This document shows, in pieces, positions 1 through 60,284 of a stretch of 61,257 nucleotides of DNA. Where the stretch lies: NCBI GenBank assembly GCA_900316255.1, contig ONCI01000005.1:1-61257 (forward strand). The letters are read 5' to 3'. The position numbers and the translations under genes are program-made. The DNA is from an uncultured Eubacteriales bacterium (lineage in GTDB: Bacteria; Bacillota; Clostridia; Oscillospirales; Oscillospiraceae). Under the pieces are notes generated by a model. The model was not told the DNA's origin. It did not search any database and was given only the letters and a program-made list of their open reading frames with translations. Positions within the stretch are counted from its first letter, which is position 1. The number at the start of each line of letters is the position of its first letter.

Positions 1-107
1 CTTTCGGTTTTGTCTGAGCAACTCAACCTTAATACAGGCCACTCCTATTCGCTATCCTTTTTTTCACTTAACTGTCACACATCATTGTAAACCCTACAGG
101 TTTTCTC
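1..107 (+). other. cas9 upstream region, edge of window
   Basis: This stretch holds no gene. In type II-A loci a tracrRNA usually lies just upstream of cas9, but no segment here is complementary to the CRISPR repeat. A T-run at about 57-63 could be the 3' end of an RNA transcribed from the left, possibly a tracrRNA, but no paired stem precedes it, so this is a guess. No strong promoter for cas9 is obvious. Confidence 0.3.
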
Positions 108-3100
108 ATGAAGCAAAACGGAAACGACAAGAAGACAGGCGAATACTATCTCGGTTTGGACGTTGGCACCAACTCGGTAGGCTGGGCCGTTACAGACCCG
201 GAGTATCGGGTATTGAAGTTCCACGGGAATGCCATGTGGGGCGCCCGGCTGTTTGATGAAGCGCAGGATGCCTCCGGCAGACGGAGCAGCCGCGTGGCGC
301 GGCGCCGCCTGGCCAGAAGGAACCAGCGGCTTCGGATCCTTGAACTGCTCTTCGCGGAAGAGATCGCCAAGGTCGACCCCCTGTTCCTGCGCCGCATGGA
401 AGAGAGCGCCCTGTGGCTGGACGACAAGACGGACCGCAGCTGCAGGTTTTCCCTGTTTAACGATCCCGCCTTTACAGACAAGGACTACCATCGCAGATAC
501 CCCACGATCTATCATCTCCGGCAGGAGCTGATGCAGTCTGATGAGCCGCACGATATCCGGCTGGTCTATCTTGCGCTGCACCACATTCTGAAGAGTCGGG
601 GACACTTTCTTTACGCCAATGCAGGCGACGATGGTGAGATCGTGCCTGTTGAAAAGGAGCTGGAGGAGCTGCGCCGGATCCTGGAGGAAGCATATGCCGT
701 TTCCTTCACTCTGGAGGACGAAGAAGGCTTCGTGTCCGCGCTGGCGAGAAACGACGTGGGGATCGGGGAGAAGCAAAAGCTTCTGAAAGCCGCCTGGAAC
801 GGGAAGGACGCGGAGGACGCGCCGGTCAGCTTGTCTTCCATGATCGACCTGTTGGCGGGAAAGAGCGGCGTGAAGCTATCGTCTCTGTTTGCCGATGAGA
901 GCCTTGATCACGCGGAAATCAGCAAGATTTCCCTGAAAGCCGATCTTGAGGAGCAGTTCGACCTTTTGAGTGCGGCGCTGGGTGACCGGGTGGATCTGAT
1001 CCTGCAGATGAAGGACGTCTTTGACGCGGCCAGACTCACCCAGATGCTGAGAGGCCACGCCACGCTGAGCGAGGCAAAGATTGCCCTTTACGAAAAGAAT
1101 CGGAAGGATCTGCGTCTCTTCAAAGCCTGGGTACGCAGAACGATCCCGAAACGATACAAAGAGATCTTTTCCCTGAAAAAGGAGAGGCTCAACAACTACG
1201 CCGCCTACAGCGGATATCAGAGCAAAAGCGGCAGCTATTCCTGCACCCAGGAGGCTTTCTGCAAGTATCTGAACTCCCTGATCCCCTCACAGGAGCAGGG
1301 CAAGGGAGAAATGGCGCGTATCTTCCGGGAGATTCGGGAGGGCAGCTTTCTCCAGAAGCTGAAGGGATCGGAAAACGGCGTGATCCCCTTCCAGCTTCAA
1401 CGACAGGAACTGAACGGGATCCTGGACCGGTGCGGACGCTATCTGCCCTTCCTGAACACGAAGGATGAGGACGGCTTTACCGTTTCCGACAAGATCCGGA
1501 TGACCTTTGCGTTCCGAATCCCCTACTACGTCGGCCCGCTCAACAGCAAAGCCGGGGCCTATTGGGCCGTTCGTTTTCCCGGCAAGGAGCATGCGGCGAT
1601 CACCCCCTGGAACTTCCGGAGTGTGATCGACACGGAAGCGTCCGCACGGGCGTTTATGTTCAACCTTGTCGGACGCTGCAGCTATACCGGTGAGCGGGTG
1701 CTTCCCCGAGACTCCCTGCTTTATTCCGAGTTCATGCTGCTGAACGAGCTGAATCCGCTGCGCGTCAACGGGAATCCCATCCCGCCGGAGGTCAAGCAGC
1801 GTCTGGTCCGGGACCTGTTCATGGCTTCCCGCAAGCCGGTGACCAAAAAGCAGATCCGGAACTATCTGCTGAGCGAGGGTCTGATCGGTCCCGAGGACGA
1901 GATCAGCGGTATAGACGATCGGATCAAATCCACGCTGAGATCCTATCATGATTTCCGCCCGATCCTGGAAAAGACAGGAGACGCCGAGCTTGTGGAGCAG
2001 ATCATTGAGCATGTGCTGATCTTCGGAGAAGACCGGCGGATGCTCAGAAGCTGGCTGAAAAAGATCGCGCCCATGCTGGAGGACGAGGAGCTTTCCCGGA
2101 TCTGCCGCCTGAAATACCGGGAATGGGGGCGGCTGTCCAAGGTGTTCCTGACCGGTCTGTATGACGCGGCCCCGGAGACCGGGGAAGCCCGCAGCATCAT
2201 GGACCTGCTGCGCAGCACAAACGAGAACCTGATGCAGCTTCTCTCCACCCGTTATAGCTTTGCGGATCAGGCGGAAGAGCACCGGAAAGAGCTTTTCGGA
2301 TGCGGAGAGAGCCTGGACGCACGGATGGAGAGCCTGTATCTTGCGCCTGCGGTACGCCGCAGCGTGCGCCAGACACTTCGCATCGTTGACGAGATCGTGG
2401 ATATTCGTAAAAGCGTGCCCAGGAAGATCTTCGTGGAGATGGCGCGGGACAGCGCCAAGGACATGAAGGGGAAACGCACCGAATCCCGGAAGGCCAAGCT
2501 GCTTGCCCTTTACGCTTCCTGTCGGGAGGAGAGCGCGGCCCTGCTCCCCCGGCTCCAGGAGGAGGACGAAGGACGGCTGCGCAGCGACAAGTTATATCTC
2601 TATTATTCTCAGTTCGGCAAATGCATGTATTCCGGAGAGCCCATCGATCTTGACGCGTTGATGGACGGCAGGCTCTTCGACATCGACCATATTTTCCCGC
2701 AATCGCGCATCAAGGACAACAGCCTTGACAACCGGGTGGTCGTGAAGAACACGCTGAACCGGGAGAAAACGAACGTCTATCCCATCAAGGCGGAGATCCG
2801 CACACAGATGCGCCCGTTCTGGGAGATGCTGCGCCAGAACGGCATGATCAGCCAGAAAAAGTATGACCGGCTGATCCGGCAGACGCCGCTCACAGAACAG
2901 GAACTGTCCTCCTTTGTGGCCCGGCAGCTTGTGGAGACCCAGCAATCCACCAAGGCCCTGACGCTGCTGCTGCAGGAGCGCTATGGGGACGCCACCCGCA
3001 TCGTCTTCTCCAAGGCGGGGAATGTCAGCGATTTCCGGCACGATTTTGATCTGCTCAAGTGCAGGGAGGTCAACGACCTGCACCACGCCAAGGACGCTTA

Positions 3101-4112
3101 CCTCAACATCGTGGTGGGAAATGTGTACTGCACCCGTTTTACAGACCGCTTCTTTGCCAACATCGGGAACGAGAATTACAGCCTGAACCGGGTGTTTGAA
3201 TACGACGTGCCCGGAGCCTGGGACCGAAAAGAAACCATCAAGACCGTGAAGCATTTCATGGCGAAGAACAATCCCATCGTGACGCGCATGCCGCGGGAAG
3301 TGAAGGGACAGCTCTTCGATCTGCAGCCAGTTTCAAAAGTGGAAGCTAAAATCCCCAGAAAGCAAAGCCTTCCTGCTGAGAAATATGGAGGGTATACAGG
3401 CCGTTACGCATCTTTCTTTATACTTGTGGAACATCAAAAAGGGAAAAAACGTATTCGTACTATTGAACCCGTATATCTTTATGCAAAGAGGCTATTTGAA
3501 TGCGATCCTCGAGAGTACTGCAGAAAAGAATTATCCTTACTTAATCCTGACATTATTGTCCCTATGATCCGAGTCGACTCGTTGCTTGAGCTTGACGGAA
3601 CGAGGCTTTTCATTACAGGAGGGAGTGATAGCCAAGGAGATGGGCGAGATGTCTATGACTTGTCGTCGCAGCTGATTATCGATTATGACAGGCAGAAACT
3701 GATTAGGGCCATCTTCAAGTTCATAGATCGCGCCGAGGGAAGGAAAGAAGAGATGACTCCTACTGCCTGGGATGGGATCGATGAAGAAGACCTGATAGAG
3801 CTCTACGATTGGTTCACACTTAAACTAGATGCTCCGATATATCGTGAACTCTTCGTTCAAGAGAGGGAAATGCTTGAGCAAAACCGCGAAAAATTCGAAG
3901 CTCTCTCTCCTGCTGCGAAATGTCGTATCGTTAAGCAGATTGTCTTGATGCTGCAGTGCAATGCCGTTATTCCGAATTTCACAGAGCTGTGTGGGAAAAA
4001 AGTTGGCAAACGCATTAGGAAGAATTGCAAACTGTCAGGGCTGTCATCAGCCTATCTCATCCATCAATCCGTGACCGGCCTCTATGAGCGCCGGGAAGCT
4101 CTTCTGAAATGA
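108..4112 (+). CDS. cas9: Type II-A-like CRISPR endonuclease Cas9
   Basis: This is an RNA-guided DNA endonuclease of 1334 residues, a full length for the SpCas9-like group. RuvC-I is seen in YYLGLDVGTNSVGWAV (catalytic D18), RuvC-II in IFVEMARD (E777) and RuvC-III in HHAKDAY (H992, H993, D996). The HNH domain has DIDHIFPQS (D860, catalytic H861). The C-terminus ends in the conserved LIHQSVTGLYE motif, so the PAM-interacting domain is present. The ATG at 108 gives the full RuvC-I motif; its ribosome-binding site is weak. Up to about base 3325 the gene is GC-rich (45 of 60 G+C in 2521-2580). Beyond that it drops sharply (20 of 60 in 3421-3480), and the switch falls near the RuvC-III/PAM-interacting junction. 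The CRISPR array follows after 44 bp; no adaptation genes are in the window. Confidence 0.97.
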   Translation: MKQNGNDKKTGEYYLGLDVGTNSVGWAVTDPEYRVLKFHGNAMWGARLFDEAQDASGRRSSRVARRRLARRNQRLRILELLFAEEIAKVDPLFLRRMEESALWLDDKTDRSCRFSLFNDPAFTDKDYHRRYPTIYHLRQELMQSDEPHDIRLVYLALHHILKSRGHFLYANAGDDGEIVPVEKELEELRRILEEAYAVSFTLEDEEGFVSALARNDVGIGEKQKLLKAAWNGKDAEDAPVSLSSMIDLLAGKSGVKLSSLFADESLDHAEISKISLKADLEEQFDLLSAALGDRVDLILQMKDVFDAARLTQMLRGHATLSEAKIALYEKNRKDLRLFKAWVRRTIPKRYKEIFSLKKERLNNYAAYSGYQSKSGSYSCTQEAFCKYLNSLIPSQEQGKGEMARIFREIREGSFLQKLKGSENGVIPFQLQRQELNGILDRCGRYLPFLNTKDEDGFTVSDKIRMTFAFRIPYYVGPLNSKAGAYWAVRFPGKEHAAITPWNFRSVIDTEASARAFMFNLVGRCSYTGERVLPRDSLLYSEFMLLNELNPLRVNGNPIPPEVKQRLVRDLFMASRKPVTKKQIRNYLLSEGLIGPEDEISGIDDRIKSTLRSYHDFRPILEKTGDAELVEQIIEHVLIFGEDRRMLRSWLKKIAPMLEDEELSRICRLKYREWGRLSKVFLTGLYDAAPETGEARSIMDLLRSTNENLMQLLSTRYSFADQAEEHRKELFGCGESLDARMESLYLAPAVRRSVRQTLRIVDEIVDIRKSVPRKIFVEMARDSAKDMKGKRTESRKAKLLALYASCREESAALLPRLQEEDEGRLRSDKLYLYYSQFGKCMYSGEPIDLDALMDGRLFDIDHIFPQSRIKDNSLDNRVVVKNTLNREKTNVYPIKAEIRTQMRPFWEMLRQNGMISQKKYDRLIRQTPLTEQELSSFVARQLVETQQSTKALTLLLQERYGDATRIVFSKAGNVSDFRHDFDLLKCREVNDLHHAKDAYLNIVVGNVYCTRFTDRFFANIGNENYSLNRVFEYDVPGAWDRKETIKTVKHFMAKNNPIVTRMPREVKGQLFDLQPVSKVEAKIPRKQSLPAEKYGGYTGRYASFFILVEHQKGKKRIRTIEPVYLYAKRLFECDPREYCRKELSLLNPDIIVPMIRVDSLLELDGTRLFITGGSDSQGDGRDVYDLSSQLIIDYDRQKLIRAIFKFIDRAEGRKEEMTPTAWDGIDEEDLIELYDWFTLKLDAPIYRELFVQEREMLEQNREKFEALSPAAKCRIVKQIVLMLQCNAVIPNFTELCGKKVGKRIRKNCKLSGLSSAYLIHQSVTGLYERREALLK

Positions 4113-4156
4113 GCTGGCGCATCGTCTCTATCTCCAGCATGTGCAAGCTGGATTAC

Positions 4157-4985
4157 AAAATGGATTAGTGTAATTTCAAGTGGTAGTAAAACCGTTCCAG
4201 ATGGCCGGGTCCGCGATCCCGCGTTTGAGAGTAGTGTAATTTCAAGTGGTAGTAAAACTCCGCACCTCCTGTCCGCGGTTCGCGTCCGGTTTGAGAGTAG
4301 TGTTATTTCAGGTGGTAGTAAAACCGGGTTGCCGCCGCTGCGGACCATGAACAAGTTTGAAAGTAGTGTAATTTCAAGTGGTAGTAAAACCGAGATCGCC
4401 CAGGCGATCATCAACGGCGAGTTTGAGAGTAGTGTAATTTCAAGTGGTAGTAAAACATTGTGCTGTGTAGCCCATCAGCCAAACCTCGTTTGAGAGTAGT
4501 GTTATTTCAAGTGGTAGTAAAACGACCACATGGCCGTCCAGCCCCAACACGTAGTTTGAGAGTAGTGTAATTTCAAGTGGTAGTAAAACTCAAACCACGC
4601 GCAACTGTTCAGCCGCAGAGTTTGAGAGTAGTGTAGTTTCAAGTGGTAGTAAAACACTCGTTTCGCTCTTTCAGGCGGCGGTTTTGTTTGAGAGTAGTGT
4701 AATTTCAAGTGGTAGTAAAACCTGGATCAGCGCGTCCTGGGTGTCGTCCTTGTTTGAGAGTAGTGTAATTTCAAGTGGTAGTAAAACCTGGCCTCATCCG
4801 TGGGCGGGTGGAAGTAGGTTTGAGAGTAGTGTAATTTCAAGTGGTAGTAAAACGCTTGACGCTGGCATCCTGCTCCGCAATTTGTTTGAGAGTAGTGTAA
4901 TTTCAAGTGGTAGTAAAACTGCGCCCAAGGTGTGATAATGATAGACTCGGTTTGAGAGTAGTGTAATTTCAAGTGACAAGAAAAC
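4157..4985 (+). CRISPR. Type II-A CRISPR array, 13 repeats, 12 spacers
   Basis: Thirteen 36-bp repeats begin GTTTGAGAGTAGTGTAATTT and end in TAAAAC, and resemble the Filifactor-type II-A repeat. Starts are 4157, 4223, 4289, 4355, 4421, 4488, 4554, 4620, 4686, 4752, 4818, 4884 and 4950. Spacers are 30 nt except the fifth (31 nt). The first repeat has lost its first ten bases. The last is altered near its 3' end (GTGACAAG replaces GTGGTAGT), as expected for a leader-distal terminal repeat. Interior repeats vary by single bases at 4289, 4355, 4488 and 4620. Repeat orientation, the degenerate last repeat and the following terminator all indicate rightward transcription. Only 44 bp separate cas9 from the first repeat, so no normal leader is visible. 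Spacer 1 (4193-4222) matches the resident terL gene. Confidence 0.98.
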
Positions 4986-5020
4986 CAGGAGAAAGCCAAA
5001 CGGCGATCTCCTGGTTTTTT
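4981..5020 (+). terminator. Intrinsic terminator of the CRISPR array
   Basis: A 12-bp perfect stem pairs 4981-4992 with 5007-5018 (core CCAGGAGA / TCTCCTGG) and runs into six T residues at 5015-5020. Its left arm uses the last five bases of the terminal repeat. It ends rightward transcription of the array. Confidence 0.85.
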
Positions 5021-5084
5021 ATGGGGAGAGTTCATCAATCATCTGTCTTGCGCCGGGGGCGAGATCCTTCGCTGGCGCGAAGCC

Positions 5085-5460
5085 ATGACAGGAACGGGAG
5101 GGGCAAGCCCCTCCCCTACGGGGAGACGGGGACCTCATCCACCGCAAGCGGTCCCCCTTCCCCGTGCGCGGGGAAGGCTTAGGGCCGCCGAGGGCATCTC
5201 GACGCGCGAGAAACGCGCGACGTTCCACGCTCTGCTCGGCCCCTACAACAAGACAGGCAGCGGGAGAGGACACCTCATCCGCCCCAGTGTGCGCACTGGG
5301 GCACCTTCCCCTCCAGGGGAAGGCGTTGCGGGACGTCGAGGGCGCCGTCCCCTACAGAGTTAGGCGAGCAGCGGGGCTCATTTCCCCTCTCAGTCAACCG
5401 GCGGGCGGACACGCCGGTTGACAGCTCCCCCCGAGGGGGGAGCCAAGTGGCGTGCGCTCC
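5085..5460. repeat. Non-coding cluster of palindromic intergenic repeats
   Basis: No gene is supported here. The DNA consists of G/C-rich hairpins such as GGGAGGGGCAAGCCCCTCCC (about 5097-5116). There are at least two copies of a composite repeat (about 5116-5167 and 5266-5327). Each has the box CCTCATCC, then a self-complementary arm of variable sequence, then a CTTCCCC..GGGGAAGG hairpin. Related copies recur throughout the window. ORFs across it are low-complexity artefacts. Confidence 0.7.
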
Positions 5461-5503
5461 ATTTTGGCAAGGGGGCCATTGCGGGGGACGGGCGGTCCTT
5501 TTG

Positions 5504-5682
5504 GTTTACATAATTTCTATTTCGGTTTACATATTCTGGTTTACGTAATTATATAATTTGTTTACATAATATATATGCGAAGCTCGTCGATATCGCGTTG
5601 AATATCGACGGGCTTTTCGTTTATGCATTTCGTTATTAGTTTACATAATACAAAGACATTCATCTATTTCAGTTTACATAAT
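5504..5682 (+). repeat. Six direct GTTTACATAAT repeats plus a hairpin
   Basis: Six same-strand copies of GTTTACATAAT, or one-base variants, start at 5504, 5525, 5539, 5560, 5639 and 5672. The surrounding DNA is AT-rich and unlike its GC-rich neighbours. Between the fourth and fifth copies lies a 12-bp hairpin (GCTCGTCGATAT at 5582-5593 with ATATCGACGGGC at 5602-5613, one G-T pair) followed by TTTT. Spacing of 21, 14 and 21 bp suggests repeated binding of one protein, as at transposon ends or replication and partition sites. No transposase gene remains nearby, so the role is unknown. Confidence 0.75.
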
Positions 5683-5692
5683 TTCTGTTTTT

Positions 5693-7171
5693 TTACACAC
5701 CCGCGTTGTCCGTCCGGCGGAGATGGTCCAGCTTGCGGAGCTCGCCGCGGCCGACGAGGAGGGCGATGAGAAAGGCGGCAAGGTCGGAGGCGGCCTGGAC
5801 CAGTTCGATGCCAAGCAGCGGCGCCAAGCCCAGCAGCCGCATGAGGCCCGGGAGCAGCAGCACCAGGGGTATGAAGGCCAGGCCCTGACGGGCCAGGGCC
5901 AGCAGGGTCGCCTTGCCGGTGACGCCGATGTTCTGCAGCATCATATTCAGCATCACCACCCAGGCGGTGAGGGGAAAGACCACAAGCTGGGCCCGGAAGG
6001 TGAAGGCCGCGATGTCCAGGGCCTCCGGGCTGGCGCCGGCCACCAGGTTGGTGATGGGCCGGGCGAAGACGAAGAACAGCGCTGCGATGCCCACCAGCAC
6101 CACCGAAGCCACCCGAACGCAGTACCGGAAGGAGCGGAGCACCCGGTCATAGCGCCGGGCGCCGTAGTTGAAGCCGCAGACCGGCTGGAAGCCCTGGCCG
6201 AAGCCGATGAGGGCCGAAGAGAGGAACATCATGATGCGGTTGACGCCGGTCATGGCCGCCTGGGCCGCGTCGATGAGCAGCGGGTCCACGAGATAGAGGC
6301 CGATGGCGTGGTTCAGGCTGGCGGTGGCGATGCTGGCCATGCCCTGGCGGGCCAGGGAGGGCAGGCCGCCCTTGAAGATGCCCTTGAAATAGTACATCGT
6401 GGGGGTGAAATTGCGCAGGCGGATCTTCACATTGTCGCTGCGGCCCATGCCCACGGCCAGGATGCAGAAGCTGAAGACCTGGCTGATCCCGGTGGCCAGG
6501 GCAGCGCCGGCCACGCCCATGCCCGCGCCGAAGCCCATGCGCACATTGCCGACGCCGATGGCGTCCCCGGCCTTGAAGATCAGCACCGGGTCCAGGAAGA
6601 GGTTCAGCACCGCGCCGCTGGCCAGGCCCAGCATGGAGAAGAAGGCGTTGCCCTGCATGCGCAGCTGATTGTTCATGACGATGCTGCCCATCATGAAGGG
6701 CGTGGCCAGGAGGATAAAGCGCATATAGGCCACGGTATGGCCCAGGGTGGCCGGGGTCTTGGCGCCCAGGGCGCGGGCGAAGGGCACCCGGAACAGGAGG
6801 CCCAGCACCGAGAGCACAAGGCCCAGCAGCACCGCCGAGAAGAAGCCGGTGGCGGCCATCTTCTCCGCCTCCCCAAACTCCTTGCGGCCGAAGGCCCGGG
6901 AGATGAAGTTGCCGGAGCCGTGGCCGTGGTAAAAGCCGATGGCCTGGATGATGTTCATCAGCGGCAGCACCACGCCCACCGCCGCCACCATGCTGTCCTG
7001 CTCCAGGTGGCGGACGAAGAATGTGTCCGCCAGGTTATAGAAGGAGGTCACCAGCATGCTGATGATGGTGGGGACTGCCAGGCGGTTGATCAGCTTCTCC
7101 ACCGGCTGGGTGGTCATGCGGAGATATTTTTCTTCCTTGGCGCTGTCCGGATTGCGGATCTGCTCGCTCAT
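5693..7171 (-). CDS. MATE family multidrug/cation efflux protein
   Basis: The 492-residue protein has the two-times-six transmembrane pattern of the multidrug and toxic compound extrusion family. Typical features include the N-terminal PTIISMLVTSFYNLADTFFV helix and the FGQGFQPVCGFNYGARRYDR segment in the second half. Such proteins export drugs or metabolites using Na+ or H+ gradients; the substrate cannot be predicted. The ATG at 7171 is preceded by a GGGGAG ribosome-binding site, and a TATAAT box lies upstream on the minus strand near 7205. It is divergent from the acetyltransferase gene at 7307, and the two may share the intergenic control region. Length is slightly above the usual 440-460 residues because of an N-terminal hydrophilic extension. 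Confidence 0.92.
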   Translation of the reverse strand: MSEQIRNPDSAKEEKYLRMTTQPVEKLINRLAVPTIISMLVTSFYNLADTFFVRHLEQDSMVAAVGVVLPLMNIIQAIGFYHGHGSGNFISRAFGRKEFGEAEKMAATGFFSAVLLGLVLSVLGLLFRVPFARALGAKTPATLGHTVAYMRFILLATPFMMGSIVMNNQLRMQGNAFFSMLGLASGAVLNLFLDPVLIFKAGDAIGVGNVRMGFGAGMGVAGAALATGISQVFSFCILAVGMGRSDNVKIRLRNFTPTMYYFKGIFKGGLPSLARQGMASIATASLNHAIGLYLVDPLLIDAAQAAMTGVNRIMMFLSSALIGFGQGFQPVCGFNYGARRYDRVLRSFRYCVRVASVVLVGIAALFFVFARPITNLVAGASPEALDIAAFTFRAQLVVFPLTAWVVMLNMMLQNIGVTGKATLLALARQGLAFIPLVLLLPGLMRLLGLAPLLGIELVQAASDLAAFLIALLVGRGELRKLDHLRRTDNAGV

Positions 7172-7250
7172 GGGCTGACTCTCCCCTGCTTCGTCGTTTT
7201 TTTCATTATACGACAGGAGGCGGGAAATTGCCAGCCCCGGGGCGGGAATC

Positions 7251-7279
7251 TTGCCGGGAAGGGGGAAATATGCTACAAT
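7251..7279 (+). promoter_or_regulatory. Probable sigma-70/A promoter for the acetyltransferase
   Basis: TTGCCG at 7251-7256 and TACAAT at 7274-7279 are separated by 17 bp and lie 28 bp before the downstream ATG. Confidence 0.55.
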
Positions 7280-7927: not shown

Positions 7928-8200
7928 GCCGCCCGCTGCGCGGGGAAGGTTGAGGCGGACGAGCGATGGTCGTCCCTGCGGCGGGAGGGCAGTGCTTCCC
8001 CCAGCGGGGGAAGCTCCCTCCAGTGCGCACACTGGAGGGTGATGAGGGAGAAGCCTCTACGATTTCCATCCGCCGGTTTTGATCCTGCCTTCTCCCTCAT
8101 CCGACATCCGCCTCGCGGGAGATCGGCGGATGCCACCTTCCCCCGCTGGGGGAAGGACAACTGGGCAAGCCCTCCCCTACGAGGGGACAGAGAAAACACA
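7928..8200. repeat. Intergenic palindromic repeats
   Basis: No gene is supported here. The stretch contains two facing copies of the composite repeat: about 7990-8060 with GCTTCCCCCAGCGGGGGAAG, and about 8090-8160 with CCTTCCCCCGCTGGGGGAAG. Each is joined to a variable self-complementary arm and a TGATGAGGGAG or CTCCCTCATCC box. Confidence 0.65.
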
Positions 8201-8201
8201 T

Positions 8202-8237
8202 AAAAAGATCCGCGGAAGTGATTCCGTGGATCTTTTT
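8202..8237. terminator. Bidirectional terminator between convergent genes
   Basis: AAAAAGATCCGCGGAA at 8202-8217 pairs with TTCCGTGGATCTTTTT at 8222-8237 around a 4-nt loop. The A-rich and T-rich flanks let it act in both directions. It sits between the rightward acetyltransferase and the leftward lpd gene. Confidence 0.85.
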
Positions 8238-8270
8238 CCTATTCGGCAGCTGATTTGCCAGGCCCTCCGC

Positions 8271-9659
8271 TTACTGCTTTTCCAGCTTCGCGGCCAGGTC
8301 CTCCAGGGCTTCGGTGAGAGCTTCCTCGAAGGAGGGATGGGGGCGCATGGCGAGAAGGAGCTGCCGGGGCGTCATGCCGTTGGCGATGGCCTGGCTGATC
8401 TGGGAGATCATGTCCGGCGCGTTGAGGCACATGAGCTGGGCGCCCAGGATTTTACCTGTCTCGGCGTGGGCCAGGACCTTCATGAAGCTGCGGCCCGGGT
8501 CCTCGATCAGGGTGCGGGCGTTGCCGCCCAGGACGCACTTGCCGGTCTTCACCGGGATGCTCCGGGCCTTGGCCTCGGCGTCGGTGAGGCCCACCACGGC
8601 GATCTCCGGCCGGCAGTAGACGCAGCTGGGGACCACCCGCATGTCCACCCGGCTTTCCTGGCCGCAGAAAAGCTCGGCAAAGGCCTGGCCCTGGGCGGAG
8701 GCCACATGGGCCAGCTGGGTGTTGGAAGCCACGTCCCCGATGGCGTAGACGCCGGGGATGCTGGTCTCATAGCGTTCGTTTACCTTGAGGATGCGGCCCT
8801 CCAGCTCCGGGGTGAGCCCCTCGGCAAAGAGGCCCTCCCAGGCGGCCCGGCGGCCTACGGCGCAGAGCACCGCTTCGCCCTCAGCAAAGTCCGGCTTGCC
8901 CTTCATGGTGAAGTGCACCCGGATACCAGTCTCGGTCTGCTCCGCCCGCTCCACCAGAGCGCCGGTGCAGACCCGGACATTTTTCTTTTTGAGGATCAGG
9001 GCCAGGTTCTGGCCCAGCTCCCGGTCCAGCATGGGAAGGAGCCGGTCCAGACCCTCCAGCACGGTGACATCGACCCCCAGGTCAGAGAAGAAGCAGGCGA
9101 ATTCGATGCCGATGACCCCGCCGCCGATGATGACCAGGGACCGGTAGAGATGGTCCGGGCCCTGGAGCAGCTCCTCGCTGGTGAGGACATTGGGCAGGTC
9201 CATGCCGGGCAGAGGCAGGCGGATGGGCTCGGCCCCGGTGGCGATGAGGATGGCCTCCGCCGTGACTTCTATCTCCCCTTCCGGGCCGGTGACGCGCACC
9301 CGGTGAGGCTCCAGGATCTTAGCCCGGCCGCGCAGCAGGGGGATCTTCGCGCTCTTGAACATGGTCTCCACGCCGGCACTGAGAGTCTGGGCCACCCGGA
9401 GCTTATTCTGGAAGATCTCGCCCAGGTCCGCCCGCAGGCCCTCGGCGTGAACGCCCACGGCGACCCCCTCCCGGGCGGAGCGGTAGAGCTCGGAGCTGTG
9501 CAGCAGGGTCTTGGTGGAGACGCAGCCCCGGTTCACGCAGGTGCCGCCGGGCTCCCGGGCCTCCACAACGGCGACTCTTTTGCCCAACTTCGCCGCCCGC
9601 AGGGCCGCGGTCTGGCCCCCCGGCCCGGCGCCGATCACAAGAAGATCATAGTCGAACAT
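8271..9659 (-). CDS. lpdA: Dihydrolipoyl dehydrogenase (glycine cleavage L-protein)
   Basis: This FAD-dependent oxidoreductase reoxidises the dihydrolipoyl arm of GcvH with NAD+. The 462-residue protein starts with the FAD-binding VIGAGPGGQTAALRAA motif, followed by the redox pair GGTCVNRGC (C41 and C46). The NAD-binding IIGGGVIGIEFACFFSDLG motif follows, then the second FAD motif YAIGDVASNTQLAH and the active-site RPHPSFEEALTEA near the C-terminus. No N-terminal lipoyl domain is present. The ATG at 9659 was chosen over an upstream in-frame start because it places the FAD motif at the usual distance. It is the last gene of the glycine-cleavage operon, about 30 bp after the small membrane protein gene, and ends before the 8202-8237 terminator. 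Confidence 0.95.
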   Translation of the reverse strand: MFDYDLLVIGAGPGGQTAALRAAKLGKRVAVVEAREPGGTCVNRGCVSTKTLLHSSELYRSAREGVAVGVHAEGLRADLGEIFQNKLRVAQTLSAGVETMFKSAKIPLLRGRAKILEPHRVRVTGPEGEIEVTAEAILIATGAEPIRLPLPGMDLPNVLTSEELLQGPDHLYRSLVIIGGGVIGIEFACFFSDLGVDVTVLEGLDRLLPMLDRELGQNLALILKKKNVRVCTGALVERAEQTETGIRVHFTMKGKPDFAEGEAVLCAVGRRAAWEGLFAEGLTPELEGRILKVNERYETSIPGVYAIGDVASNTQLAHVASAQGQAFAELFCGQESRVDMRVVPSCVYCRPEIAVVGLTDAEAKARSIPVKTGKCVLGGNARTLIEDPGRSFMKVLAHAETGKILGAQLMCLNAPDMISQISQAIANGMTPRQLLLAMRPHPSFEEALTEALEDLAAKLEKQ

Positions 9660-9690
9660 GGCTGATTTCCTCCCAAATACCGCTTTGGAT

Positions 9691-10011
9691 CTATCGCTTC
9701 CCGGATAGTTCAAGAATGAGGATGGAGAGAATGGGGAACGCGAGCCAAAGATACGAGTTCAGGGCAAAGATATTCATCTTTTCCTGCCCTTTTACGAATC
9801 TTGGGAATCGGTTTCTCAACCCGACGCCGAAAATGTCCGCTTCCTTGTCAAAACGGTCGTACTGAACAGACCAAACAATTGTGCAGATGATGGCAAAGAA
9901 GAAGCAGGTGCCCATCACATAGGGGAACAAATCCTCTCCGGCATCGATTTCCGCCCAGATCATCAAAGCGATAACGGCAAGACTGATAATCAGATCCTTT
10001 TTTCGGAACAT
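9691..10011 (-). CDS. Small membrane protein within the gcv operon
   Basis: This 106-residue protein is of unknown function. It has two adjacent hydrophobic segments near the N-terminus (IISLAVIALMIWAEI and YVMGTCFFFAIICTIVWSV) and a third at the C-terminus (YLWLAFPILSILILEL), so it is probably an integral membrane protein. A charged region (YDRFDKEADIFGVGLRNRF) lies between them. It sits between gcvPB and lpd on the same strand with short gaps and is likely co-transcribed, although glycine cleavage enzymes are cytosolic. Its codon use is visibly more AT-rich than its neighbours, which suggests later insertion into the operon. I do not recognise a family. Confidence 0.75.
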   Translation of the reverse strand: MFRKKDLIISLAVIALMIWAEIDAGEDLFPYVMGTCFFFAIICTIVWSVQYDRFDKEADIFGVGLRNRFPRFVKGQEKMNIFALNSYLWLAFPILSILILELSGKR

Positions 10012-10045
10012 CTGCTTCTCCCTTTCTGTCGATACGAATCAGCTT

Positions 10046-11449
10046 TCAGCCCTTCTGCCTGCGGAGCACCGGCTGGCGGGCGGCCCGGACCTCGTCGGGC
10101 CGGGCGATCTGGGCCTGGTGGGGCGCGTTGTGCATGAAGTCCGGGTCTTTTTTGCCCAGCTCATAGAGTTCCCGGAAGATCTGGGCAGCCCAGTCCAGGG
10201 TCTCCTTGCTCTCGGTCTCGGTGGGCTCCAGCATCAGGGCCTCGTGGACGATCATGGGGAAGTACATCGTGGGCGGGTGCATGCCGTAGTCGATGAGGCT
10301 CTTCGCCACGTCCAGGGCGCTGACGCCGGTCTCCTTCTTGTATTCCGAGAGGTCCAGCACGAATTCATGCATGCAGATCCGGTCAAAGGCGGGCTCAAAG
10401 CTGCCCTGGATCTGCCGCATGAGGTAGTTTGCGTTCAAGACGGCGTTCTTTGCCGCCTCGGGGATGCCCTCCCTGCCCAGGGTAAGCAGGTAGGCCAGGG
10501 CGCGGACCACCACAAGGAAGTTCCCCGCGAAGGCGCGGACCTGGAGATGGCCCGGCTCGTCCATCAGGGCGGAATGGGGCAGGAACTCCTTCAAAAAGGC
10601 CTTGCAGCCCACGGCGCAGGCGCCGGGACCGCCGCCGCCGTGAGGCGTGGCAAAGGTCTTGTGCAGGTTCATGTGGATGCAGTCAAAGCCCATGTCGCCG
10701 GGGCGCACCACGCCCATGACGGCGTTGAGATTGGCCCCGTCATAGTAGCACAGGCCGCCGGCCTCGTGGACCAGGCGGGTGATCTCCAGGATGTTCTCGT
10801 CGAAGAGGCCCACGGTGTTGGGGTTTGTGAGCATGAGGCCCGCGGTGTCCTCCCCCAGGACCGCCTTCAGGGCCTCCAGGTCCACGCAGCCGTCCGGGGC
10901 GGAGGGGATGTTCACCACCTCGTAGCCGCACATGGCGGCGGTGGCGGGGTTGGTGCCATGGGCGGAATCGGGCACGATGATCTTGCGGCGCTTCGTATCG
11001 CCCCGGCTGGCGTGATACTGCTTGATGAGCAGCACGCCGGTAAACTCCCCGTGGGCGCCGGCGGCGGGCTGGAAGGTCATGCCCTCCATGCCGGTGATCT
11101 CGCAGAGATATTTCGCCGCGGTGTCCAGCACCTCACGACAGCCCCGGGTGTGCTTCTCCCCGGCCAGGGGATGGACGCCGGTGAAGCCCGGCAGGGCAGC
11201 CATATCCTCGTCGATGCGGGGATTGTACTTCATGGTGCAGGAGCCCAGGGGGTAGAAGCCGCAGTTCACGCCGTGAACCCGGTGGTTGAGCTCGGTATAG
11301 TGCCGGGCCAGGTCCACCTCGCTGAGCTCCGGAAGGGCCGGCGCGGTCTCCCGGCGGAAGGCCTCGGGAAGCTCCGTCTTTTCCACGTCGCAGTTCGGCA
11401 GCAGGTCGCAGTGCCGGCCGGGAACGCTCTTTTCAAAAATCAGCTTCAT
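10046..11449 (-). CDS. gcvPB: Glycine dehydrogenase (decarboxylating) subunit 2
   Basis: This is the PLP-binding subunit of the split P-protein. With GcvPA it decarboxylates glycine and loads the aminomethyl group onto lipoyl-GcvH. The 467-residue protein carries the conserved GFYPLGSCTMKYNP motif, PDSAHGTNPATAAMCGY, and the Schiff-base lysine K264 in NLHKTFATPHGGGGPG. The start ATG at 11449 overlaps the gcvPA stop (ATGA), indicating translational coupling. Length and motifs are normal for Firmicute GcvPB. Confidence 0.96.
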   Translation of the reverse strand: MKLIFEKSVPGRHCDLLPNCDVEKTELPEAFRRETAPALPELSEVDLARHYTELNHRVHGVNCGFYPLGSCTMKYNPRIDEDMAALPGFTGVHPLAGEKHTRGCREVLDTAAKYLCEITGMEGMTFQPAAGAHGEFTGVLLIKQYHASRGDTKRRKIIVPDSAHGTNPATAAMCGYEVVNIPSAPDGCVDLEALKAVLGEDTAGLMLTNPNTVGLFDENILEITRLVHEAGGLCYYDGANLNAVMGVVRPGDMGFDCIHMNLHKTFATPHGGGGPGACAVGCKAFLKEFLPHSALMDEPGHLQVRAFAGNFLVVVRALAYLLTLGREGIPEAAKNAVLNANYLMRQIQGSFEPAFDRICMHEFVLDLSEYKKETGVSALDVAKSLIDYGMHPPTMYFPMIVHEALMLEPTETESKETLDWAAQIFRELYELGKKDPDFMHNAPHQAQIARPDEVRAARQPVLRRQKG

Positions 11450-12759
11450 TTTGCCAGCACCTCCTTTACCAGGGCGATGGCCTTGTCCAGTTCCGCTTTG
11501 CTCTGCTTCTCGGTGGCGCACCAGAGGACGCCGCCCTCCACGGGCAGGCCGCCCAGGATGCCGTTCTGCTCCAGGGCAGCCAGTACCTCCACCTGCCGGG
11601 GCAGGCTGGTGACGAACTCATGGAAGAAGGGGCCGGGGTAACGCAGCTCCACCCCCGGAAGGGCGGTGAGGCCCCGCATCAGGTAATGGGCCTTGGCCAT
11701 GCACTGCTCGGCGGCCTCCCGGAGCCCCTCCGGACCCATGACGGCCAGATACACCGAGGCGGTGAGGGCGCAGAGGGCCTCGTTGGAGCAGATGTTGCTG
11801 CTGGCCTTCTCCCGGCGGATGTGCTGCTCCCGGGCCTGAAGGCTCAGGACATAGCAGCGCTCCCCTTTTGCGTCCACGGTCTCGCCCACGATGCGGCCGG
11901 GAAGCTTTCGCATGTGCTTCTGGGTTGTGGCCATGAAGCCCAGATAGGGCCCGCCGTAGCCCAGGGGCAGGCCCAGAGGCTGGCCCTCGCCCACGGCCAC
12001 GTCAGCGCCGCAGTCCCGGGGCGTTTTCAGCAGGCCCAGGGAAATGGGGTTGCAGCCCATGACGAAGAGGGCGCCGGCGGCGTGGGTCATCTGCCCCAGG
12101 GCATCCGCGTCCTCCAGCTGGCCGAAGAAGTTGGGCTGCTGGACATAGAAGGATGCGATCTCCGGGGTGAGCATCTCCTTTAGGGCGTCCATATCCGTCT
12201 TGCCGTCCTTCACGGGGACCACGCGCAGCTCGTCCCCGGTGCCGTAGCAGTAGGTCCGCACGGTGTTGATCACGTCCGGGTGGGCCGCGCCGGAAATGAG
12301 GGTGACGCGGCGCTTCCGGTCCCGGCACATGGCGGCGGCCTCGGCGGCGGCGGTGGCGCCGTCATAGACGGAAGCGTTGGACACGTCCATGCCGGTGAGC
12401 TCGCAGATCATGGTCTGATACTCAAAGATGGACTGGAGCACGCCCTGGCTCATTTCGGCCTGATAGGGCGTGTATGCGGTAAGGAACTCCTCCTTGGCGG
12501 GGATGGACTTCACCAGAGCCGGGATATAGTGGTCATAGGCCCCGGCGCCCCGGAGGATGGTGGAGAAGCGGGTGTTCTTCTCCGCCATCTCGGTGAGGGT
12601 CCGGCCCACCTCCAGCTCGCTCATGCGGTCGGGCAGGTCCAGCTCTCCCTCCAGGAGCATGTCCGCAGGCACGTCCCGGTAGAGCTCCCGCCAGGAGCTC
12701 AGCCCCACGGCCCGCAGCATCTCCTGCCGCTGGGCCGGGGTGGAAGGCACATAGCTCAT
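11446..12759 (-). CDS. gcvPA: Glycine dehydrogenase (decarboxylating) subunit 1
   Basis: This is the partner subunit of the split P-protein of the glycine cleavage complex. It has 437 residues beginning MSYVPSTPAQRQEMLRAVGL. Recognisable segments include FLTAYTPYQAEMSQGVLQSIFEYQ, LTGMDVSNASVYDGATAAAEA and the glycine-rich LPLGYGGPYLGFMATTQKHMRKLPGR. GcvPA lacks the PLP lysine, which is supplied by GcvPB, and this is normal for the split form. It follows gcvH after 25 bp and overlaps gcvPB by 4 bp. Confidence 0.96.
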   Translation of the reverse strand: MSYVPSTPAQRQEMLRAVGLSSWRELYRDVPADMLLEGELDLPDRMSELEVGRTLTEMAEKNTRFSTILRGAGAYDHYIPALVKSIPAKEEFLTAYTPYQAEMSQGVLQSIFEYQTMICELTGMDVSNASVYDGATAAAEAAAMCRDRKRRVTLISGAAHPDVINTVRTYCYGTGDELRVVPVKDGKTDMDALKEMLTPEIASFYVQQPNFFGQLEDADALGQMTHAAGALFVMGCNPISLGLLKTPRDCGADVAVGEGQPLGLPLGYGGPYLGFMATTQKHMRKLPGRIVGETVDAKGERCYVLSLQAREQHIRREKASSNICSNEALCALTASVYLAVMGPEGLREAAEQCMAKAHYLMRGLTALPGVELRYPGPFFHEFVTSLPRQVEVLAALEQNGILGGLPVEGGVLWCATEKQSKAELDKAIALVKEVLAK

Positions 12760-12784
12760 GTTGTTTCCTCCCTGTGCAGGCTTC

Positions 12785-13156
12785 TCAGTGGGTGCACTCG
12801 GCCTCGTACTGCTCGGCGCTGAGCAGGTCCTCGGTATCGGTGACGTTCTCCACCTTGATGATCCAGGTGCCGTAGGGGTCCTCGTTCAGCTTCTCGGGAG
12901 CGTCCAGCAGCTCCTCGTTCACGGCGCAGACGGTGCCGGTGACGGGGCTGACCAGGTCGCTGACGGCCTTGACGGATTCCACATCGCCGAAGGGCTCGCC
13001 GGCGGTGGCCTCGTCCCCCACCTCGGGCAGGTTCACGAACACCACGTCGCCCAGCTCGCTCTGGGCAAAGTCGGAAATACCGATGACGGCGATGCCGTCA
13101 TCCATGCGGAGCCATTCGTGATCGCGGGAGTACTGCAGTTCTGCGGGATAATTCAT
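12785..13156 (-). CDS. gcvH: Glycine cleavage system H protein
   Basis: This lipoyl carrier protein shuttles the aminomethyl intermediate between P, T and L proteins. It has 123 residues with the usual [19 protein letters not shown] opening and the lipoylation site at K63 in [18 protein letters not shown]. The C-terminal [11 protein letters not shown] motif is also typical. The start is the ATG at 13156, with GGAGG placed about 8 bp upstream; the longer in-frame start would consume that ribosome-binding site. About 120 bp containing a palindromic repeat separates it from the upstream gcvT-SHMT fusion. Confidence 0.96.
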
Positions 13157-13175
13157 GATGATAACCTCCATTTTA

Positions 13176-13265
13176 TGATTCGTAGGGGAGGGGCTTGCCC
13201 CTCCCGATTGTACAGGTCGGGGAAACGGATTGCCACGCCAGTGTGCGCACTGGCTCGCAATGACA
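13176..13265. repeat. Palindromic repeats between gcvT-SHMT and gcvH
   Basis: A GGGGAGGGGCTTGCCCCTCC palindrome near 13184 is followed by CCAGTGTGCGCACTGG near 13239. Both hairpin types recur elsewhere in the window (5.1 kb, 5.3 kb, 51.6 kb). They lie inside the operon, so they are transcribed and could affect mRNA processing or relative expression. Confidence 0.6.
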
Positions 13266-13276
13266 GATGTTGGGAA

Positions 13277-15925
13277 TCAGAATCCGATCTTTCCTGCGAA
13301 GGCCTCCAGGGCGTCCTCGAAGTCCTTGTCGTCAAAGCAATAGCGCATGGCGGTGTAATCGGCGCGGAGGCGGCTCACATCCTCGGACACGTCCTCGCCG
13401 CGGAGGATGCAGGCAGCCATGAGCTGGGCAAGCTGGTCGAATTCCTTTTCTCCGAAGCCGAAGCGGGTCATTTCGCTGACGCCCATGCGCAATGCGCCGG
13501 AGGCGGTGAAGCCCTCCTCGTCCGGGGTGGCCTGGTAGTTCACGATGATGTTGTTCCGCTCCAGACGCTTTGCGATCTCGGCGCCCTCGCCGTAGCCCAC
13601 GGAGACCAGGACCTGGTGGGTCTCGGTATAGCCGATGGCGGGATCGCCGCAGACCCGCAGCCCCGCGGCCTTCAGGGAGCGGGCAAAGCTCTTGGCGTTG
13701 CGGATGACGGCGGACTGGTAGGCGTCCTTGAAGGCGTTCATCTCGTAGGCCGCCATGAGAAGGCCCAGCTGGGTGCCCAGGTGATGGTTGGAGACGCTGC
13801 CGGGGAAGGCCCGGTTCTCGATGCTCTCCCAGAGGCCGTATTTCAGTTCGTCCTCCCTGTAATTCACGGCGATGACGCCCCGCTGGGGACCGAAGAAGGT
13901 CTTGTGGGTGGAGCCGGTGACGATCTCGGCGCCCTCCCGGAAGGGATTCTGGAAGTAATCCCCCGCGATGCCCAGGACGTGGGCCATGTCGTACATGATG
14001 GTGGTGGGGAGCTTCTGCTCGTCCACGTATTTGCGGATCTCGGCCACAGGCTCCTTGTGGATCACCATGCTCTTGCCGAAGATGATGAGCTCTGGCCGGT
14101 ACTGGTCGATGACCTTCTTGGTCTCCTCCACGTCGATCTTGAAGATGTTGTCTTTGCAGACGGGGAAATTCACCACGGCGCTGCGCTCGGTGACCGGATC
14201 GATGGCGATATAGTCATGCAGAGCGCCCATGGGCTGGGCAGAGAGGTGGCCGCCCTTGATGATGTGGTTATTGAGCACATAGCCCAGGCGCTGGGGGGTG
14301 TGCTTGCGGTCCAGCCGGTTCTTCCAGTCCATCAGGGCGGAGAAGGTGCAGGTATTGGCCATCTGGCCGCTGGTGACGCGGGTCTCCACCTCGGTGCAGC
14401 CGAAGTATTTGCGCAGCTCCCGCACCGCCAGCTGCTCCACCTCGTCGATGAAGCCGGTGCCCTGGTAGTAAAAAATGTCCTTGTCGTAGAAGGATTTGAT
14501 CTTCTTGTGCTCGGCGTAGCGGCAGCTTGGGTCGGAGGCGGAAAGCATCTGCACGGCGCGGCTGGGGGTATTCTCCGAGGGGATCAGGTTCACGCAGCGC
14601 TTCTGCCGCCAGAGGTGGTTTTCCTCCGCACGCCGCAGCAGGTTCAGGGCCTTCAGCTCCGGAGTCTCGCCGCTCTCGGGGAGCTGGGAGAGCTCCTTGC
14701 CGTAGAGGATGGGGCGGGCAAAGGGGGGCGCCATGTTGTCCAGGTGCTTCTCCGGGATCACGGCCTTCACCCGCTTGCCGCGGATGTCCACGGTGACGAT
14801 ATCGTCCTCCAGCACCGAGCTCTCGATATAGCAGGTGCCGATGGCCCGCTTTTCCACCGTGTCGGTGATCACGGTCTCCAGCCCCTCGCCCTCGGCCTTG
14901 TAATAGGGCACCATGGTGCCGCTGGTGACCCAGCCGATCTGGGTGTCCCCCCGGTAGACGGGCATGCCGGCGCGCATGACGCCCCGTTCCAGCAGGGTGA
15001 TGGGCCGGATGGTCTTCGGCAGCGCGGCGCAGTCCGAGAAGTCCCGGTTCTGGATGCGCTTGAAGGCCTCATACTGCTTTTCCAGGGCCTTGCGGCCGAT
15101 GTAGTCGCCCTTGCGCTCGGAGAAGCTCACGGCGAACTTGGCGAGAGGCACCGCGTAGATGGGCATGGGCTTACCCTCCGGGTCCAGCCCCATCTCATGG
15201 CCGTAGAGGGGCATGCCCGCCTCCAGGCGCAGGGTGTCCCGGGCGCCCAGGCCCGCGGGACGGGCTCCCAGCTCGCAGAGCCGGTTCCAGAGCCAGGCCG
15301 CGTCCTCGCTTTTCACATAGACCTCGTAGCCCAGGGGCTCGCCGGTGTAGCCGGTCTTGGCGACGCGGGCGAAATGGCCCTCCAGCATCAGGCTGTTCAG
15401 GGCGTTCTTCATGGGCTCGGTGACCGCCTCGCCGCCGGAGAGGATGGTCATGAGCTCCTTGCTTTTGGGGCCCTGGACCGCGATGGAGGCCCAGTCGGCG
15501 GTGATGTCAGTCACGGTGACGTCGTAGTTCTCTGCGATGGGCAGCAGGTGTTGGAGGTCCTTTTCCGTGTTGGCGGCGTTTACCACCAGAAGGAGCCGGC
15601 CTTCCTCAAAGCGGTAGAGGTAGGCGTCGTCGATGGCGGAGCCGTCCTCGTCCGGGAGGATGCAGTACTGGGCCTTGTACAGGTCCAGGCCCTCCACGTT
15701 GCTGGAGAGGACGTGCTGCAGGAATCGGACCCGCTCCGGTCCCTCCACCAGGAGGCGGCCCATATGGGAAACGTCGAAGAGGGAGCAGAAATGCCGGGTA
15801 TAGAGATGCTCGGCCACGATGCCGCCGGGATACTGCACAGGCATGTCCCAGCCGCCGAAGTCCACCATGGTGGCCCCTGCCGCCAGGTGGGTCTCATAGA
15901 GTTGGGTGCGTTTCAGTTCGCTCAT
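13277..15925 (-). CDS. gcvT: GcvT aminomethyltransferase fused to an SHMT-like domain
   Basis: A single 882-residue ORF joins two enzymes that are normally separate. Residues 1 to about 410 are aminomethyltransferase (T-protein): METHYL-carrier folate motifs are represented by DFGGWDMPVQYPGG, SAIDDAYLYR, KTGYTGEPLGYEVY and MPLYGHEMG. Residues of about 425-882 resemble PLP-dependent serine hydroxymethyltransferase, with CVNLIPSENTPS, YYQGTGFIDEVEQLA, VTSGQMANTCTFSAL and the PLP lysine K675 in TGSTHKTFFGPQRG. The T domain releases methylene-tetrahydrofolate and SHMT uses it to make serine from glycine, so fusion could channel the folate. The SHMT half is divergent: the usual GGHLTHG motif reads GGHLSAQ, so its activity is uncertain. 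It is the first gene of the riboswitch-controlled operon; the ATG at 15925 has a GGAGGAAG ribosome-binding site. Confidence 0.93.
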   Translation of the reverse strand: MSELKRTQLYETHLAAGATMVDFGGWDMPVQYPGGIVAEHLYTRHFCSLFDVSHMGRLLVEGPERVRFLQHVLSSNVEGLDLYKAQYCILPDEDGSAIDDAYLYRFEEGRLLLVVNAANTEKDLQHLLPIAENYDVTVTDITADWASIAVQGPKSKELMTILSGGEAVTEPMKNALNSLMLEGHFARVAKTGYTGEPLGYEVYVKSEDAAWLWNRLCELGARPAGLGARDTLRLEAGMPLYGHEMGLDPEGKPMPIYAVPLAKFAVSFSERKGDYIGRKALEKQYEAFKRIQNRDFSDCAALPKTIRPITLLERGVMRAGMPVYRGDTQIGWVTSGTMVPYYKAEGEGLETVITDTVEKRAIGTCYIESSVLEDDIVTVDIRGKRVKAVIPEKHLDNMAPPFARPILYGKELSQLPESGETPELKALNLLRRAEENHLWRQKRCVNLIPSENTPSRAVQMLSASDPSCRYAEHKKIKSFYDKDIFYYQGTGFIDEVEQLAVRELRKYFGCTEVETRVTSGQMANTCTFSALMDWKNRLDRKHTPQRLGYVLNNHIIKGGHLSAQPMGALHDYIAIDPVTERSAVVNFPVCKDNIFKIDVEETKKVIDQYRPELIIFGKSMVIHKEPVAEIRKYVDEQKLPTTIMYDMAHVLGIAGDYFQNPFREGAEIVTGSTHKTFFGPQRGVIAVNYREDELKYGLWESIENRAFPGSVSNHHLGTQLGLLMAAYEMNAFKDAYQSAVIRNAKSFARSLKAAGLRVCGDPAIGYTETHQVLVSVGYGEGAEIAKRLERNNIIVNYQATPDEEGFTASGALRMGVSEMTRFGFGEKEFDQLAQLMAACILRGEDVSEDVSRLRADYTAMRYCFDDKDFEDALEAFAGKIGF

Positions 15926-16365: not shown

Positions 16366-16530
16366 CGCCCGAACCTGAGAGATTCCCGGTCTTGCACCGG
16401 TTGCCCCTTTGGTGTGCATCTTCTTTGGCGTGCACTTTCCGAAGTCCCGTCCTGATCCGATCCTTTTGCCTGAGAGTTTTTGCCTTCCCCTTCGGCTCCG
16501 CAAGGCGCGGCCTCTCTCGGGTCATTCATC
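16366..16530 (-). ncRNA. Tandem glycine riboswitch
   Basis: On the minus strand the first aptamer shows the hallmark CGAGAGAGGC, GCCGAAGGGG, GCAAAAACTCTCAGGCAAAA string. The second aptamer shows CACCAAAGGGGCAA and GGGAATCTCTCAGG. A short linker joins them in the usual two-aptamer arrangement. It lies in the leader of the glycine-cleavage operon, where glycine binding normally turns expression on. A GGCGCTTC..GGCGC region followed by eight U residues (minus strand, around 16336-16368) directly follows aptamer II and may be its terminator arm. Confidence 0.93.
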
Positions 16531-60167: not shown

Positions 60168-60284
60168 TATTATCATTTCTCCTTTCGATGACAGGTGCAA
60201 AAATAGCCCGCTGTTGCAAGATCATTATACCTTGCTTCAGCGGGCTGTTCAAGCACATAATTCATTTGTTTGATTAACAGTTTC

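Follow-up and report, generated by a model that had tools for sequence, protein, structure and literature searches.

The first spacer of a truncated type II-A CRISPR array most probably came from a sister lineage of the prophage that lies on the same contig. On this account the resident prophage carries the older allele of the matching terminase gene (terL), the CRISPR locus was later broken on both sides, and prophage and array coexist without conflict. The evidence comes from the window, i.e. the whole 61,257-nt stretch of DNA analysed here, and from comparison with related genomes, loci and viral contigs. It consists of the spacer match itself and its exact counterparts in related phages, a terL phylogeny, and the condition of the CRISPR locus on either side of cas9.

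Spacer 1 and its match in the resident prophage

The spacer, its counterpart and the prophage genes referred to below are:

4193-4222, + strand: spacer 1 (array reading and match searches)
36255-36284, + strand: match to spacer 1 in terL, 27/30, 3' flank CGATGCGCCG
35818-37362, - strand: terL of the resident prophage (PF03237, E 1.7e-11)
34083-35831, - strand: prophage portal protein (PF16510, E 8.4e-32)
31402-32448, - strand: N4-gp56 family major capsid protein (TIGR04387, 283 bits)
59004-60200, - strand: prophage tyrosine integrase (PHROG 1, E 2e-70)

The initial annotation, made from the sequence alone, had reported a 27/30 match between spacer 1 and terL with differences at positions 23, 25 and 26. 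Position-wise comparison confirms both statements, the two sequences being the same at positions 1-22, 24 and 27-30. The match is real and beyond chance: 300 letter shuffles of the spacer gave best matches in the window of 18-22/30, and the whole draft genome (2.7 Mb in 136 contigs) contains no site within three mismatches of spacer 1 other than the spacer and the terL site. The codon reading given earlier (G-I-A-D-P-A-I-W-N for the spacer, G-V-A-D-P-A-I-W-N for the prophage) is right, as is the CGATGC recorded 3' of the prophage site. Two codons differ between spacer and resident, one synonymously and one as isoleucine versus valine. For the other eleven spacers, described as showing no match by eye, the statement holds within the window, where their best match reaches 23 positions (spacer 4).

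Origin of spacer 1 and the flank of its target

Scanning 2.9 million IMG/VR viral contigs for the 20 PAM-proximal bases of spacer 1 returned five contigs. Three of them (L042, L043 and L044) hold the full 30/30 sequence in terL homologues whose proteins are 81-84% identical to the resident TerL, while the remaining two are unrelated sites at 23/30. In the same genus, sites at no more than three mismatches from spacer 1 occur in 5 of 102 genomes (own included); G006, G104 and G021 have three-mismatch versions, and contig C86 of G040 matches at 28/30, with mismatches at 14 and 17 and the last 13 bases perfect. Exact protospacers in viral terL genes with resident-like flanks point to a sister phage lineage as the source of the spacer, and the near-matches within the genus, that of G040 C86 among them, suggest that the source lineage, or one near it, infects this genus. 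The earlier proposal that the spacer derives from a close relative of the resident phage is thus supported by three exact terL sites and by the 28/30 site in a same-genus genome, and neither the viral contigs nor the species genomes contained an unrelated sequence that matched as well. The 20-nt core of spacer 1 also met nine sites in 84,980 species genomes, all of them unrelated and matching at just 21-25/30, and phage records gave weak matches only (best E about 2).

Downstream of the exact protospacers the 3' flanks read CGATCCGTCT, CGATGCACCG and CGATCCGCCT. At flank positions 1-8 every base of the resident is present in at least one of these three, so nothing in these sequences suggests that the flank protects the resident. 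Three exact protospacers do not define a PAM, since they come from close relatives and lie in a coding stretch. The search for further protospacers compared the 20-nt PAM-proximal ends of spacers 2, 3, 4, 6, 9, 10 and 11 with the viral contigs, where spacers 2, 3, 6, 9, 10 and 11 found nothing, and spacers 2, 3, 4, 9 and 10 with phage records by BLAST, where none matched at E 0.1; spacers 5, 7, 8 and 12 were compared with the window and the fetched related loci. A viral-contig match of spacer 4 was judged to be chance, as the similarity stops before the 5' part of the spacer. No credible second protospacer therefore came from the seven spacers compared with viral contigs or the five compared with phage records.

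Direction of change at the three terL positions

The direction of change was read from a maximum-likelihood tree of 34 TerL proteins. Its comparison set held 29 other loci from related genomes, drawn from the top-scoring portion of the 108 genomes that matched out of 199 (own genome in both counts), together with the three viral contigs and G040 C86; locus L099 was dropped as it repeats L014. In a clade of ten at 78% identity or above, the resident, G021, G104 and one G040 copy have C.CG at positions 23, 25 and 26, G006 has C.CA (two of the three resident-type bases) and G016 has T.CG, and the spacer version occurs in the second G040 copy and in all three viral contigs. The rows with the spacer allele form a single clade (support 92/94; 95% of 200 bootstrap trees), which is nested among resident-type rows and has G016 outside it. 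Such support is good, if not overwhelming, and the nesting suggests that the resident keeps the older state and that the spacer allele is derived. The spacer bases at 23, 25 and 26 are also found in G063, a distant terL outside the ten-member clade. Genome G040 holds both alleles, on contigs C46 (L099) and C86 (L098), the C86 copy with one in-frame TGA.

A search at E 1e-30 of 60 genomes sampled from the same genus did not find the cas9 of the window in any of them. These 60 include G021, G040 and G006, which carry the resident-type allele, and G104 lies outside that sample.

A CRISPR locus apparently truncated on both sides of cas9

The locus contains the following features:

1-98, - strand: IS481-family insertion sequence end (TG...CA end; shared contig ends, related transposases)
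99-107, + strand: non-IS sequence before the cas9 start codon, 9 nt only, with no usual tracrRNA or cas9 promoter
108-4112, + strand: type II cas9, 1334 aa, reading frame intact, RuvC and HNH motifs (TIGR01865, 874 bits)
4109-4168, + strand: cas1 remnant, 19 codons followed by a junction-made TAG (tblastn to G074 Cas1, E 5e-5 and 2e-5; DNA alignment)
4166-4167: deletion junction with shared TA, joining cas1 codon 20 to repeat position 10-11 (comparison with G074)
4166-4985, + strand: CRISPR array with truncated repeat 1, 12 spacers and degenerate last repeat (array reading, repeat comparison)
4986-5020, + strand: terminator-like hairpin and T run directly 3' of the last repeat (read from the sequence)

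A functional type II-A system would be expected to have a cas9 with intact catalytic domains, cas1, cas2 and csn2 beside it, and a tracrRNA with an anti-repeat. The cas9 is as expected: its product has the REC, PI, HNH_4, RuvC and bridge helix Pfam domains and the motifs DHI and HHAKDAY. At positions where all other sequences agree it shows 6 deviations, against 5 in its nearest relative, in what is a weak test of decay since it drew on sequence from nine of 17 related loci; with no excess of deviation, any inactivation would be recent or incomplete.

Beside cas9 stands a 19-codon cas1 stub alone. Its ATG overlaps the cas9 stop, its frame reads MSWRIVSISSMCKLDYKMD and 16 of its 19 residues are identical to Cas1 of G074; cas2 and csn2 gave no match in the locus, and Cas1 none in the whole draft genome. 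The window resembles the type II-A locus of G074, from the same order, in having cas9 followed by the start of cas1, in its Cas9 (62% identical), in a repeat that differs by one base and in its 30-nt spacers. It differs in that G074 has complete cas1, cas2, csn2, leader and tracrRNA, where the window has the stub, no leader and no detectable tracrRNA. Read against the intact order in G074 (cas9, cas1, cas2, csn2, leader, array), what is missing at the junction is everything in cas1 beyond the stub, followed by cas2, csn2, the leader and the first bases of repeat 1. An ancestor with the spacing of G074 would have lost about 1.9 kb, plus any leader-side spacers, and because the deletion took the leader end, spacer 1 is not necessarily the newest.

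The array is built of 36-nt repeats and spacers of about 30 nt, and 4 of its 11 internal full repeats, including the second and third, are off consensus. Among complete loci, deviating repeats number 0/17 in G074, 0/13 in G091, 0/6 in G072, 2/11 in G216, 3/17 in G421 and 17/17 in G073; complete relatives thus have them too, which makes repeat decay weak evidence. In G073 (L059 from 4060) all 17 repeats vary strongly, behind complete cas1, cas2 and csn2. The hairpin at 4986-5020 was not listed by a scan with a loop limit of 8, its loop being longer. Behind the array, a short AT-rich stretch at 5499-5690 contains five related 24-nt copies around GTTTACATAA.

Upstream of cas9, 16 of 17 related loci (the exception is G404) have tracrRNA anti-repeat motifs on the opposite strand at roughly 36-98 nt, distances that rest on extrapolated cas9 starts. 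No anti-repeat motif was found in the 107 nt that precede cas9 in the window. The pattern TTACACTACNNGTTCAAATAA, with up to three mismatches allowed, is absent from the organism's own draft assembly (96% complete) and occurs in all seven relatives searched, without mismatch in six and with three in G091. As a control, the reversed pattern hit by chance once in each of G475, G186 and G426 and nowhere in the own genome. When the window was scanned for an anti-repeat with two mismatches allowed, the single match was 14 nt long and lay far from cas9. Rfam returned no tracrRNA match in the window, a null result that is uninformative because three relatives given to it likewise went without a match. 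A simple consensus scan found no promoter-like site in positions 1-400.

The tracrRNA was likely lost by a deletion starting at the insertion sequence. It could also sit in an unassembled piece, the draft being in 136 contigs at 96% completeness and the locus starting at a contig end. In type II systems Cas9 cannot be guided without tracrRNA. The initial annotation had pictured an active Cas9 targeting the kin of the resident phage; with the adaptation genes and leader missing, and neither the tracrRNA nor the cas9 upstream region where relatives have them, that picture finds no support.

The insertion sequence and its flanks

The first 98-99 nt of the window recur unchanged at the ends of four more contigs of this genome. 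Immediately beyond them the five sequences part, which marks the shared stretch as the end of a multi-copy element. Related ends are present in 21 of 102 genus genomes (own counted). The window itself holds 98 nt only, and the family assignment draws on two related copies, whose transposases have NF033577 (IS481) as best model at E 1.2e-44 and 3.3e-42, both under the curated cut-off and each frame covering part of the model. Terminal inverted repeats are seen in the related copy L147, whose contig begins, 1.08 kb away, with a similar end in inverted orientation (87.5% over 24 nt). The transposase of the element at 1-98 would be transcribed leftwards, away from cas9.

The flanks of these elements have a feature of their own. 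In 28 of 40 distinct flanks, from the own and 18 other genus genomes, a -35/-10 pair of the sigma70 type starts 29-32 nt from the IS end, counted at 8 or more of 12 consensus bases with 17-nt spacing; shuffled flanks (1000 trials) averaged 0.86 such cases and never exceeded 5. The count leaves out duplicate flanks, two flankless copies and matches that stop short of base 86 of the IS end. As the distance was chosen after the first flanks had been read, the 14 of 18 obtained from flanks fetched later is the fairer count. Within the own genome the pair is found at all four other copies and is missing at the cas9 copy, which fits loss of the cas9 promoter by an IS-adjacent deletion and is no proof of it, 11 other flanks also being without the pair. 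TnGBS, ISLre2 and ISKra4 elements insert upstream of sigmaA promoters, at 15-17 bp for TnGBS and its related insertion sequences, according to the portion of PMC3942029 available. The window element is like them in its fixed-distance insertion upstream of promoters and differs in being closest to IS481 and in having the -35 box 29-32 bp off. That portion of PMC3942029 has no mention of IS481, and no literature title was found that ascribes a promoter-upstream habit to IS481. The promoter-upstream position may be of more general interest.

Genomic setting of the locus

Positions 5329-7262 and 8163-14767 of the window are collinear with the same-genus genome G104 at 90-93% identity, and positions 1-5328 have no counterpart in the G104 stretch compared. 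Compared with G104, the window appears to carry the CRISPR locus as a local insertion. The collinearity and a chromosomal protein 96% identical in G104 indicate that contig and bin agree. That protein, an 882-aa frame at 13277-15925 on the - strand, joins glycine cleavage T-protein and serine hydroxymethyltransferase domains (PF01571, PF00464). The frame belongs to a glycine cleavage cluster that also has a glycine riboswitch (16448-16529), and its protein is found at full length in 12 of 102 genus genomes (own included).

Weighing the explanations

Under the reading that we favour, spacer 1 would have been acquired while the type II-A system was still complete, its source being a sister lineage of the resident prophage (N4-gp56 capsid type). 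This source lineage would carry the derived terL allele and the resident the older one, differing at PAM-proximal positions 8, 6 and 5, so that the resident was probably never a good target of spacer 1 and no escape mutation is needed. A later deletion would have fused cas1, after its 19th codon, with the first repeat. The remainder of cas1 would have gone, along with cas2, csn2 and the leader, and the array would have been frozen. At the opposite end of cas9 the tracrRNA position of relatives is taken by an IS481-family element, which stops 9 nt short of the start codon. Cas9 should then be unable to use the array, and with no usable tracrRNA the prophage would need no protection. The initial annotation had instead called the resident phage a seed-escape variant, which we consider quite improbable. 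All three differences do fall in the PAM-proximal third, the flank resembles those of the exact protospacers, and exact targets exist in relatives (30/30 in L042, L043 and L044), as selection by this Cas9 would lead one to expect. Escape also calls for a derived mismatched state and for carriers that face this Cas9, but it is the spacer allele that forms the nested, derived clade (92/94), the resident allele is shared with prophages of related species, and the cas9 is present in 0/60 same-genus genomes. An older resident state in carriers without this cas9 speaks against an escape mutation, and one synonymous codon plus one valine/isoleucine exchange is an ordinary kind of drift.

It is unlikely, too, that the locus is frozen but still provides immunity. 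In that case cas9 would be expressed, e.g. from a promoter within the IS end or further out, the tracrRNA would lie in unassembled sequence, transcription of cas9 would continue into the array, and the prophage would be spared by the three seed mismatches. The intact cas9 and mostly intact repeats agree with such a state, and G466, G397, G475, G199 and G186 keep the anti-repeat despite adaptation loss, which makes interference without adaptation plausible; were the tracrRNA in unassembled sequence, one would expect the mismatches at PAM-proximal positions 5, 6 and 8 to make cutting at the resident site less efficient. Against it stand the lack of a tracrRNA anti-repeat in the draft assembly and of a promoter-like site in 1-400. 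The least probable reading is a chimeric or misbinned contig, such that cas9, array and prophage were never in one cell. The assembly is a draft and this cas9 is missing from 60/60 same-genus genomes searched, but the collinearity with G104 and the 96% identical GcvT-SHMT protein argue for an undisturbed contig, the IS end is typical of the genus (21/102), and the cas1-repeat junction shares 2 bases only, too few for an overlap join by an assembler.

Repeated loss of adaptation genes in the order

Across the order, 24 of 394 genomes (own included) had a cas9 match at E 1e-60. With G378 and G337 (incomplete at contig ends) and G376 (fragmentary cas9) left out, 21 loci could be assessed: cas1, cas2 and csn2 are full-length or nearly so in 15 and truncated or missing in the following six:

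Window: cas1 19 codons, then array
G466: about 146 cas1 codons matched, then array directly
G397: cas1 58 codons, leader-like stretch kept
G475: cas1 52 codons, leader-like stretch kept
G199: cas1 codons 227-289 only, cas2 33 codons, csn2 present
G186: none found

Differing breakpoints make the losses look independent. The tracrRNA anti-repeat is retained in G466, G397, G475, G199 and G186. Another Cas1 is encoded elsewhere in the genomes of G466, G199 and G397, and none in those of the window, G475 and G186. The five further type II-A loci with cas1 truncated or missing are L093, L094, L095, L096 and L097. A possible, still doubtful, generalization is that type II-A loci of this order repeatedly shed their adaptation genes by differing in-place deletions and keep cas9, and with it a fixed guide set; the window array would thereby have come to lie in the cas9 transcript, and resident prophages of the family that the array records may help to select against further spacer acquisition. 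No title on repeated cas1-array fusions in type II-A systems was found among the open-access papers searched.

Relation to known systems and implications

Spacers that resemble a resident prophage (PMC6990116) and degraded CRISPR loci (PMC6882279) are already known, as the accessible parts of these papers attest. The window is like the self-targeting cases in PMC6990116, as far as its accessible part describes them, in that its spacer resembles an integrated prophage, and unlike self-targeting proper in that there are mismatches in the seed and the prophage carries the older allele; the same part lists loss of cas genes as one way out of self-targeting. With the degraded type II systems of Mollicutes, as covered by the accessible part of PMC6882279, it shares type II-A loci with disrupted or missing parts, and it departs from them in an array fused into a truncated cas1 and an IS end that replaces the cas9 upstream region. 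The parts seen of PMC8482600 and PMC7316486 have no direct bearing on the question.

A near-match between a spacer and a resident prophage is often taken as the trace of an arms race, and here the target-gene tree and the state of the locus offer a plainer account. Both the tree of the target gene and the condition of the CRISPR locus should be checked before escape is claimed. If the loss of adaptation genes beside an intact cas9 holds in a wider set of finished genomes, it would become testable whether prophage-bearing bacteria gain from a fixed set of spacers.
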